DNA from: Alteromonas sp. KC3
Lineage (GTDB): Bacteria > Pseudomonadota > Gammaproteobacteria > Enterobacterales > Alteromonadaceae
Reading direction: 5' to 3'
DNA: 64,000 bases
NCBI RefSeq assembly: GCF_016756315.1
Contig: NZ_AP024235.1
Span: 2,108,001-2,172,000, forward strand
Shown piece after piece: positions 54,393 to 60,940 of the stretch (within the stretch, counting starts at the first letter, position 1; every line of letters starts with the position of its first letter). A program made the translations under genes and the position numbers. The notes under the pieces are model-generated. The model had not been told where the DNA came from and searched no databases. It saw nothing but the letters and a program-made list of their open reading frames with translations.

Positions 54393-54484
54393 GGAGAGTT
54401 GGCAGAGCCCGGTTTAATGCACCTGACTTGAAATCAGACGTGGGGTCAAACCCACCGGGGGTTCGAATCCCTCACTCTCCGCCA
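54393..54484 (+). tRNA. tRNA-Ser (anticodon UGA), copy 1
   Basis: A 92-base class II tRNA including the encoded CCA. The acceptor GGAGAGT pairs with ACTCTCC; the anticodon loop CTTGAAA gives TGA at 54429-54431; the variable arm is GTGGG/CCCAC; the T arm is GGGGG-TTCGAAT-CCCTC. It reads UCN serine codons. Identical copies are at 59939 and 60331. Confidence 0.97.
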
Positions 54485-54663
54485 TATCCTAAAAACCCGC
54501 ACACTGTTGCGGGTTTTTTTTATACTCTAAGAAAAGTATGAATGAGTGAGGGTGAGAAACCCCGTTGTTCGACAAAACGGCAGGAATGCCGTTTTGCACA
54601 ACCGAAGGTTGCCCGTAGGGCGAGCGCCATGGACGGCGCGAGTGAATCCCTCACTCTCCGCCA
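54485..54663 (+). repeat. tRNA-linked hairpin unit A, copy 1
   Basis: A 179-bp unit from the end of the tRNA to a second copy of the tRNA 3' end (GAATCCCTC...CCGCCA at 54644-54663). It opens with the tRNA terminator, then GAGTGAGGG (54544) which can pair with CCCTCACTC (54648) to close a multibranch structure. Inside are CAAAACGGCA-GGAA-TGCCGTTTTG (54573-54596), CAACC-GAA-GGTTG (54599-54611), a short CCC-GTA-GGG and GCGCC-ATGGAC-GGCGC (54624-54639). It is not a protein gene. Whether it is a stable RNA, a mobile repeat or a decayed tRNA copy is open. Confidence 0.8.
54491..54521 (+). terminator. Terminator of tRNA-Ser copy 1
   Basis: AAACCCGCA/TTGCGGGTTT with a long T run directly after the tRNA. 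Confidence 0.9.
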
Positions 54664-54833
54664 TATTAAACAAAAACGCCTCACAGTAATGTGGGGCGTT
54701 TTTGTTTTGTCTGAAGGAAAATGCGGACTTGATAAGAATCCCGCGGGTTCGACCAATCGTCGGGAACGATTGGTGCCGCCGAATGCGCCCGAAGGGTCGG
54801 GTACAGGATGTACCCGAGCACATCCCTCCGCCA
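54664..54833 (+). repeat. tRNA-linked hairpin unit B
   Basis: A 170-bp unit after unit A copy 1 with mostly different sequence but the same plan: a leading terminator hairpin, then ACCAATCG-TCGGGAA-CGATTGGT (54752-54774), a short CCC-GAA-GGG, TCGGGTAC-AGGAT-GTACCCGA (54797-54817), and an end ATCCCTCCGCCATAT that is the tRNA 3' end with six bases missing. GCGGA (54723) can pair with TCCGC (54827). It carries GGTTCGA, a T-loop-like string, ahead of the first hairpin. Confidence 0.7.
54671..54704 (+). terminator. Terminator hairpin at start of unit B
   Basis: CAAAAACGCC/GGCGTTTTTG with an inner CAC/GTG, followed by TTTTG. It would end a transcript of unit A copy 1. Confidence 0.8.
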
Positions 54834-54839
54834 TATCCT

Positions 54840-54870
54840 AAAAACCCGCACACTGTTGCGGTTTTTTTTT
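54840..54870 (+). terminator. Terminator after unit B
   Basis: The same CCGCA/TTGCGG hairpin as after the tRNAs with one G lost, followed by nine T. Confidence 0.8.
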
Positions 54871-54941: not shown

Positions 54942-55370
54942 ATGCAAGACGACACGAATATTGTAAATAGCGCCAATTCAACTCAACGTGCCTTTGGTTT
55001 CTGGGTGCCTTTAGACACATCAGTGAGTCAAAACGATAAAGCCCTTCTGGCGTGCACATATCCCTTAGACACCCCTATCACGCATAGACAGTTAGCGGCG
55101 TGTATTCATGAAAAAATTATGACAGAAATCAAGTCGTCAAGGGTGACTCAAGAAGTACCTTCGTTTAGTGATCAAATAAAACAACTAGGCGTTGGCCAAT
55201 TTGCACATACTTTAACGACATCGGTCATGAAGATAGCGCTAAAGCTTGATATCGCGCACGAAAATAATTGCTGGCTAGCCGGCATTACGCCCGTTTCTAA
55301 AAGCCAAGTGAAAAAGTCGCTTGAAACGTTTACTACTATTGCTCGTCTTCATGATAGGGCGGGTAGTTGA
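54942..55370 (+). CDS. Hypothetical protein
   Basis: A 142-residue soluble protein with no recognised family. It begins after AAGGA at good spacing. The sequence looks like a normal folded protein (RAFGFWVPLDTSVSQNDKALL, CWLAGITPVSKSQVKKSLETF) without signal peptide or membrane helix. The stop codon overlaps the start of a tiny lipoprotein gene (TGATG), so the two are coupled. First gene inside the segment between tRNA-Ser copies 1 and 2. Confidence 0.55.
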   Translation: MQDDTNIVNSANSTQRAFGFWVPLDTSVSQNDKALLACTYPLDTPITHRQLAACIHEKIMTEIKSSRVTQEVPSFSDQIKQLGVGQFAHTLTTSVMKIALKLDIAHENNCWLAGITPVSKSQVKKSLETFTTIARLHDRAGS

Positions 55371-59938: not shown

Positions 59939-60030
59939 GGAGAGTTGGCAGAGCCCGGTTTAATGCACCTGACTTGAAATCAGACGTGGGGTCAAACCCA
60001 CCGGGGGTTCGAATCCCTCACTCTCCGCCA
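59939..60030 (+). tRNA. tRNA-Ser (anticodon UGA), copy 2
   Basis: Identical over all 92 bases to copy 1, with CCA encoded. Confidence 0.97.
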
Positions 60031-60209
60031 TATCCTAAAAACCCGCACACTGTTGCGGGTTTTTTTTATACTCTAAGAAAAGTATGAATGAGTGAGGGTG
60101 AGAAACCCCGTTGTTCGACAAAACGGCAGGAATGCCGTTTTGCACAACCGAAGGTTGCCCGTAGGGCGAGCGCCATGGATGGCGCGAGTGAATCCCTCAC
60201 TCTCCGCCA
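60031..60209 (+). repeat. tRNA-linked hairpin unit A, copy 2
   Basis: Identical to copy 1 over 179 bp except for one base: the last hairpin reads GCGCCATGGATGGCGC instead of ATGGACGG, which adds one base pair (A-T) and tightens the loop to TGGA. Confidence 0.8.
60037..60067 (+). terminator. Terminator of tRNA-Ser copy 2
   Basis: Same hairpin and T run as after copy 1. Confidence 0.9.
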
Positions 60210-60330: not shown

Positions 60331-60422
60331 GGAGAGTTGGCAGAGCCCGGTTTAATGCACCTGACTTGAAATCAGACGTGGGGTCAAACCCACCGGGGGT
60401 TCGAATCCCTCACTCTCCGCCA
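60331..60422 (+). tRNA. tRNA-Ser (anticodon UGA), copy 3
   Basis: Identical over all 92 bases to copies 1 and 2, with CCA encoded. Confidence 0.97.
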
Positions 60423-60601
60423 TATCCTAAAAACCCGCACACTGTTGCGGGTTTTTTTTATACTCTAAGAAAAGTATGAATGAGTGAGGGTGAGAAACCC
60501 CGTTGTTCGACAAAACGGCAGGAATGCCGTTTTGCACAACCGAAGGTTGCCCGTAGGGCGAGCGCCATGGACGGCGCGAGTGAATCCCTCACTCTCCGCC
60601 A
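60423..60601 (+). repeat. tRNA-linked hairpin unit A, copy 3
   Basis: Identical to copy 1 over 179 bp, ending in the second tRNA 3' end with CCA. Confidence 0.8.
60429..60459 (+). terminator. Terminator of tRNA-Ser copy 3
   Basis: Same hairpin and T run as after copies 1 and 2. Confidence 0.9.
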
Positions 60602-60637: not shown

Positions 60638-60675
60638 ATACGTTAAGAAAAGTATGAATGAGTGAGGGTGAGAAG
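60638..60675 (+). repeat. Truncated start of a further hairpin unit
   Basis: This stretch matches the first 38 bases after the terminator in unit A (through GAGTGAGGGTGAGAA) with a base or two changed, then similarity stops. It looks like the broken left part of another copy. Confidence 0.7.
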
Positions 60676-60940
60676 CCCATTGCTAGCCCACCAGACCTTA
60701 AGGTTTTAGCTTTCATGTGAAATAAAATTTGATCTCATCCTGTCTCTATTTTGTAACTAAACTGCATTTCATCATAAAGTCTATGTATATATAGTGTTTT
60801 ATTCACTGAAGCCTGATAAAAATAAATAGATTTGCTACTAGTTAAACCGTACTGCTGAGACTAATTCTTCCTATCCGCTGTTAATCTTTGGTTTTCGGCG
60901 TGATCAGCAGTAAGAAAATCAGAGAACCCGAGAGGATAGT
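60676..60940. other. Intergenic region before ovoA
   Basis: About 265 AT-rich bases between the repeat array and ovoA. It presumably holds the ovoA promoter; no clear operator or -35/-10 pair stands out. Confidence 0.4.

Follow-up and report, generated by a model that had tools for sequence, protein, structure and literature searches.

A probable divergent RtT element behind tRNA-Ser(tga) genes of Alteromonas sp. KC3, with a closing stem that follows the host tRNA

RtT elements have reportedly been on record since 1991 from tRNA operons of Escherichia coli. In E. coli K-12, rttR is annotated behind tyrV in the tyrT operon (NC_000913, 1287066-1287236), where the core is followed by a copy of the tRNA-Tyr tail with one mismatch in 20 nt and the units measure 175-178 nt. 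As far as the accessible parts of these sources go, RtT RNA is reported to be released from tRNA operons, with Northern signals for relatives in Actinobacillus (PMC4986893), a tandem GA motif has been mentioned (PMC7657543), and Salmonella strains differ by 175 bp in repeat number at rtT (PMC2658671); RtT/rttR is also named in PMC12306157.

The window analysed here is a stretch of 64,000 nt from Alteromonas sp. KC3 (contig NZ_AP024235.1, positions 2,108,001 to 2,172,000), and all features described below lie on its plus strand. A tRNA-Ser(tga) gene is located at 54393..54484 (ARAGORN; Rfam tRNA model, 52.9 bits). Its last 20 nt including CCA (GAATCCCTCACTCTCCGCCA, 54465..54484) recur without mismatch (20/20) at 54644..54663 and are followed by TAT, as after the tRNA itself, resulting in a period of 179 nt. 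The repeat unit between these ends (unit 1, 54485..54663), delimited by repeat comparison, consists of the trailer, an intrinsic terminator (54491..54521) in the interval between tRNA and core, the RtT-like element, and the copy of the tRNA 3' end. A further terminator follows at 54672..54703; both were recognized by eye as a hairpin with a T run. A unit of exactly this length, ending in a copied tRNA 3' end plus TAT and having a terminator of its own, had been proposed in the original prediction, and both observations hold.

Unit 2 is a tandem core of another core type at 54733..54822 (44.1 bits with the core model R1, see below), the nearest core to which in the whole set is that of locus L297, at 0.96. 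Its P1 is unpaired, so that the closing stem is broken, and its fold is little above chance (z -1.72). It is followed by a remnant of the tRNA 3' end that has lost its inner bases (TCCCTCCGCCA, 54823..54833, by eye) and by a terminator at 54840..54870 that is near-identical to the one at 54491..54521 (98% repeat). ARAGORN detects a second and a third tRNA-Ser(tga) at 59939..60030 and 60331..60422. The core at the second one (60099..60194, R1 54.7 bits, tail copy 60190-60209) and the core at the third one (60491..60586, R1 54.6 bits, tail copy 60582-60601) are each 99% identical to unit 1, and 31 nt of a further, truncated unit remain at 60648..60678 (97% match). The damaged tandem core, the two additional tRNA genes with their units, and the truncated unit go beyond what had been predicted. 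A 99-aa open frame (54542-54841) spans both units, probably by chance; an annotated tpr frame likewise lies within E. coli rttR. No recombinase gene of an att-type element was found between the repeats, the listed ORFs of at least 80 aa (99, 104, and 108 aa) running through the repeats.

Among the Rfam matches, RtT (RF00391) is the one that spans the whole element and fits its context. It covers 54532-54663 (+) with model positions 1-130 at 27.0 bits (E 0.002-0.008). As the curated cut-off of this family is 45 bits, the window unit is filed as a divergent variant and not as a plain RtT member. In the same genome, five matches are found at E<=10, three of them behind tRNA-Ser(tga), one behind three tRNA-Lys genes (44.2 bits), and one behind tRNA-Arg(acg) (28.1 bits). 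Scores reach 55.1 bits within the same bacterial family and 64.9 bits at a locus in a Lysobacteraceae MAG, and relatives at other tRNAs exceed the cut-off. The window units are tied to RtT because such intermediate-scoring relatives bridge the gap. Unit 1 lies behind a same-strand tRNA, carries the host 3' end with CCA, has a tandem period of 179 nt close to the approximately 178 nt of RtT with a second core starting at 54733, and shows the multibranched fold and the conserved motifs, with a weak P2 and with P4 missing from the minimum free energy (MFE) fold. We regard the window unit as an RtT-like element with a probability of roughly 0.85. The earlier suggestion, a structured RNA whose 3' end resembles that of a tRNA, fits the predicted RNA, which can be aligned end to end with RtT RNA. 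The sX7 sRNA model (RF02226) also matches 54566-54642 at 28.1 bits, below its cut-off of 55, and was set aside as a look-alike hairpin. As a relative it was rejected as well: sX7 loci occur in two of 274 genomes, one above the cut-off (61.3 bits) and one below it (50.9 bits), without a tRNA and without an R1 match. By eye, both lie between coding frames; the frame adjoining the first resembles the end of recA.

The MFE fold of 54540-54663 reaches -53.5 kcal/mol, compared with a mean of -38.4 for 200 dinucleotide shuffles, none of which is as low (z -4.23). In this fold, the strand GAGTGAGGG near the start of the unit (54544..54552) pairs with CCCTCACTC (54648..54656) within the tRNA 3' end copy, just as anticipated, and this helix (P1) closes a multibranch fold. 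Its likening to the size of a tRNA-Ser was loose, since the fold comprises 124 nt versus 92 nt. The conserved core P2-P6 occupies 54553..54648 (alignment A2; R1 54.6 bits). Four compact hairpins had been described, three of which are part of the MFE fold: P3 (54573..54596; 8 of its 9 pairs have changed on both sides within the family), P5 (GCCC-GTA-GGGC, 54611..54621; included in the family covariation analysis), and P6 (54624..54639; both-side changes in 6 of 7 pairs). The fourth, P4 (AACC-GAA-GGTT, 54600..54610), is present in the sequence and its pairs covary in the family, but its arms pair elsewhere in the MFE fold of the window unit.

The RtT core has a conserved fold with strong compensatory change. 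In an alignment of 23 cores, 22 of which have a known host tRNA (Ser, Lys, Arg, Glu, Asp, Pro, or Trp), 85.9% of the cells are paired and 21 of 29 pairs have changed on both sides; the compensatory changes across homologues that had been named as a check are thus present. The covariation score of 0.422 was obtained with a structure drawn on the same alignment, partly from RNAalifold, and compares with 0.157 (sd 0.012) in shuffles that ignore relatedness and with at most 0.092 in a slid control that does not.

The model R1 was built from the core alone, so that the tail and the tRNA neighborhood are independent of the search. A scan of named genomes with an exact pattern yielded at least 118 loci, which makes the spread a lower bound; their titles include Enterobacter, Escherichia, Serratia, and other enterobacteria, Thioalkalivibrio, Ectothiorhodospiraceae, Salinisphaera, Lysobacterales, Marinobacter, Bowmanella, and Zetaproteobacteria. 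Of these loci, 117 were searched with R1, while L130 from Streptomyces (L numbers designate loci) was left out because it looked like a chance match in coding DNA. Among the matches listed, 121 of 143 have a same-strand tRNA within 1500 nt upstream, and 6 of the 22 others have none despite at least 1500 nt of upstream sequence. In 102 of the 119 testable cases among these matches, the core is followed by a copy of the final 17 nt of the closest upstream tRNA with up to three mismatches, and in 90 of the 119 this copy is exact; among pairings with other isoacceptors, which in part have identical ends, the proportion is 5.7%.

Searching 221 sources with R1 gave 319 matches and 291 unique cores, a pooled set that includes the sequences from which R1 was built and leaves out 27 dispersed loci without a linked tRNA as well as L086 and L105, which duplicate stretches contained in other loci. 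In this set, 240 cores have a tRNA within 1500 nt upstream, belonging to 22 isoacceptor types, and 20 cores have 1500 nt of upstream sequence and no tRNA. A tail copy with up to three mismatches in 17 nt is present in 175 of 239 linked elements. Since the other 64 of the 239 have no close copy, and since the last unit of several arrays among the matches listed is devoid of CCA (by eye: L135, L136, L183, L198), the CCA end is not essential.

The closing stem of the element follows the host tRNA. When the 22 nt before the core are compared with C61-73 of the host tRNA, the longest Watson-Crick run has a mean length of 5.46 with the own host and of 3.75 with other tRNA types. At the level of types, the means are 4.58 and 3.66 (sd 0.12), the value for the own host being reached in none of 5000 permutations, and the run is longer with the own tRNA in 20 of the 22 isoacceptor types. 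P1 is short in many elements, with a run of four or less in 112 of 239. The run against the tail of the element itself has a mean, given without a control, of 5.9 in those 198 of 239 elements that show AT(C/T)C in this tail, and comprises 15 pairs in Gln L138 and 12 pairs in Glu L187. At two loci, Trp L098 and Ser(gga) L088, the upstream strand fits the host tRNA (12 and 13 pairs) better than the decayed tail of its own element (9 and 8 pairs). Within the genus, two sister genomes (L293, L300) have a tRNA-Ser(tga) end with CCCTCCCTC instead of CCCTCACTC, and the upstream strand of P1 carries the matching change.

A further link connects the core with the T-loop of tRNA genes. Both flanks resemble a T-arm in 163 of 240 tRNA-linked cores, with a 5' motif of the GGTTCGA kind on one side and AATCC or a close variant on the other, but in 0 of 45 cores from loci without a linked tRNA. 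For the 214 of 291 elements that have exact TTCGA and ATC motifs, the core was removed in a script, and in four of them (L163, L199, L230, L239) ARAGORN then recognized a tRNA gene. These tRNAs are interrupted after TTCGA in the T-loop and have decayed 3' ends; they may represent ancestors, or products of a deletion between two GGTTCGA copies. A description of the matching of the stem to the host tRNA or of an interruption of the T-loop was not found in the RtT/rttR literature outside subscription papers, as far as the accessible parts of these texts extend. RtT might be a propagating RNA or DNA element at home in the T-loop of tRNA genes that moves among the tRNA genes within a genome and acquires the 3' half and the trailer of each host with a refitted stem, a rather unlikely possibility. 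If so, it would give rise to a tRNA minihelix carrying a giant T-loop, the 15-bp acceptor/T-stem-like helix of Gln L138 would be the extreme case of a refitted stem, and the upstream strands of L098 and L088 would look like a record of the tail on which they were built.

The tRNA-Ser(tga) with its unit has a match in 39 of 40 genomes of the same genus. When 30 loci were read by eye, occupied sites (e.g., L292, L293) were found beside empty ones with the same downstream sequence (L301, L309), and relics resembling a decayed core were seen at the second tRNA of L299 and in L303. The tRNA itself served for comparing occupied with empty sites because the ORF adjoining the array (54942-55370) has no match in the 39 other genomes of the genus. 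The 12 nt following the tRNA match those following the RtT tail at a mean of 8.9 positions (n=136, 49 fully identical), whereas the trailers of different loci of the same tRNA type agree at 5.2 positions; in the window, only 7-8 of 12 positions agree. As the repeat extends past CCA into the trailer, local duplication or homogenization is pointed to, and not selection on CCA alone. The idea of an inserted element restoring the 3' end of the tRNA is partly supported by the occupied and empty sister loci and by a repeat made up of tRNA end and trailer, but local duplication explains the repeats equally well.

For each of 76 family-level cores, the nearest relative was sought among cores that do not share both its genome and its tRNA type, as a neighbor count of short cores and not as a tree. 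It belongs to the same tRNA in another genome in 30 cases, mostly Ser(tga) loci of the genus, to another tRNA in the same genome in 11 cases, and to neither in 35 cases, compared with 11.8, 2.4, and 61.9 in a shuffled control. These counts suggest that vertical descent and movement of cores between tRNA genes have both likely occurred. Two viral contigs (L248, L249) carry RtT-like cores, with four R1 matches in a row in one and one match in the other. In L071 (1634-2029), a tRNA-Lys with an RtT unit is followed by three more copies of the Lys 3' end (3/20 mismatches) at spacings of 96, 150, and 150 nt with differing content. A repeat at tRNA-Gly(gcc) of the own genome (L046, 1726-1834), in which the Gly 3' end recurs 109 nt behind the second tRNA-Gly with 3/22 mismatches, resembles a decayed tRNA-Gly copy; having neither an RtT core nor an R1 match, it was set aside as something else.

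Intrinsic terminators are frequent in the family. According to a home-made rule, 81 of 168 intervals between a tRNA and its first core contain one, versus 3 after a single mononucleotide shuffle per interval, and 52 of 137 tail copies are followed by one within 90 nt. How often one lies ahead of the first core depends on the tRNA: Ser(tga) has it in 18 of 19 intervals and Pro(cgg) in 13 of 15, but Tyr (0 of 24) and Gln(ttg) (0 of 11) in none. Because a terminator precedes the core in 18 of 19 first units at Ser(tga), little RNA may be made there, and the intervening terminator implies that the window units would need read-through or a promoter of their own.

Several other explanations were weighed. 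The strongest of them, held to be somewhat below even odds, is a palindromic DNA element of the BIME/REP kind that came to reside behind tRNA genes, its hairpins being kept as DNA or for its own spread without any RNA function and the duplication of tRNA end and trailer being a by-product. A connection between rtT and BIMEs was drawn by Naville and Gautheret in 2010 (PMC2965389, in its accessible part), and dispersal is real in parts of the order: in eight genomes selected for their large number of hits, 13 of 40 loci are linked to a tRNA and 27 have no same-strand tRNA within approximately 1500 nt upstream while sharing P3-P6. Such dispersed P3-P6 elements without T-arm flanks on both sides (L258-L262, L265-L269, L271-L279, L281-L284, L287-L289) partly occur in tandem or in longer repeated blocks. 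Since core-only relatives are scattered in some genomes, the order-wide tally of 123 of 295 genomes with a match, with 14 first-look candidates scored per genome, mixes RtT with dispersed relatives. The passage of the repeat into the trailer and the fact that the nearest neighbor core sits at another tRNA type in 46 of 76 cases also speak for such an element. Against it, many copies scattered between genes were not found in the own genome, where 150 of 738 first-look candidates were scored and all six R1 core matches at E<=1 lie behind tRNAs (four Ser(tga), one Lys, one Arg); the check for a plain, scattered REP member therefore turned out negative for this genome, with core-only relatives scattered in some other ones. 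The lack of paired T-arm flanks at unlinked loci and the strand before the core, which follows the host tRNA, also speak against a DNA element, as does the excess of G-U pairs over A-C mismatches on the tRNA strand (171 versus 58), although the alignment was fitted to the structure and favors G-U. Alternatively, the units could act as back-up terminators or attenuators where tRNA genes have strong promoters, with serial hairpins and terminators stopping read-through and an incidental copy of the tRNA end. The terminator counts given above and the attenuation of transcription by BIMEs, stated in the accessible part of PMC2965389, are in line with such a function, which we nevertheless consider improbable, given that the first units at Tyr and Gln(ttg) have no terminator and that the match of P1 to the host tRNA is left unexplained.

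Two further explanations have very little probability. CsrA prefers GGA loops, and GGA triplets occur in the hairpin loops of the core at 0.95 GGA-bearing loops per core versus 0.23 in shuffled sequences, although plain shuffles fold fewer loops (2.25 versus 3.98). Together with a weak RsmY match (15.3 bits, E 0.13-0.32), this would be compatible with a CsrA decoy; such a role is highly improbable, as there are few loops per unit and GGA loops are rare in Pro(cgg) elements (0.12 per core, n=25) and absent from Arg(tct) (n=6) and Thr(tgt) (n=2) elements. Slightly less probable still is a degenerate tandem tRNA copy, which had been among the readings originally offered. The flanks do look T-arm-like and tRNA-derived, and the few core-interrupted tRNA bodies mentioned above belong here as well, but ARAGORN finds no tRNA within the repeat unit of the window, and the core, with its conserved fold and compensatory changes, is not a decayed tRNA. 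Overall, the original interpretation is partly supported.

In the RtT-like element, the core hairpins P3-P6 occupy the position of the T-loop between a T-arm-like 5' half (GTTCGAC) and the copied 3' half of the host tRNA ending in CCA, and the upstream strand pairs with the copied end, thereby closing the fold. The following sequence of events may be envisaged. Transcription passing the first terminator would allow the RNA to fold, its CCA end could be trimmed by the ordinary enzymes of tRNA 3' maturation, and a stable RNA of approximately 120-180 nt might remain, as reported for E. coli rtT. The duplicated tRNA end would be kept mainly by recombination between the repeats and by selection on the closing stem. 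That RNA is made and used at the window locus is a tentative proposal to which we give slightly less than an even chance. Putative trimming at CCA, a possible role in the stress response, and presumed movement between tRNA genes are what we infer from the comparisons.

With this comparison, RtT becomes a testable family, whose core is found behind 22 isoacceptor types, usually with the local tRNA 3' end and a matched stem. The question of how one sequence reaches so many tRNA genes with the right tail is made concrete, as is the question of which effect a CCA-ending, tRNA-like RNA might have on tRNA maturation or the stress response. In this respect, the sister genomes in which Ser(tga) loci are either occupied or empty represent natural experiments.

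With regard to known systems, sX7 has one similar hairpin in common with the window. Islands and phages as a class integrate at tRNA 3' ends, and such integrated elements resemble the window unit in being flanked by a direct repeat of the tRNA 3' end; in contrast to them, the unit measures only 179 nt, which leaves no room for an integrase gene, and the repeat extends into the trailer. BIME/REP elements are, like RtT, multi-hairpin intergenic repeats, a similarity to rtT that is in print (PMC2965389, accessible part), and like them RtT has core-only relatives dispersed in other genomes of the order; the window differs in that the copies found in its own genome lie at tRNAs and in that unit 1 has T-arm flanks and a tRNA tail. 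Compared with RtT of E. coli, the window element has tRNA-Ser as its host, a score of 27.0 bits below the cut-off, a weak P2, GGA loops in place of the E. coli loops, and an intrinsic terminator before the core, which none of the 24 first units at tRNA-Tyr has. It shares with E. coli rttR the location behind a same-strand tRNA, tandem units of 175-179 nt that end in the 3' end of this very tRNA, and the same fold with the motifs TGAGAA, GTTCGA, the GCCC/GGGC hairpin, and AATCC.
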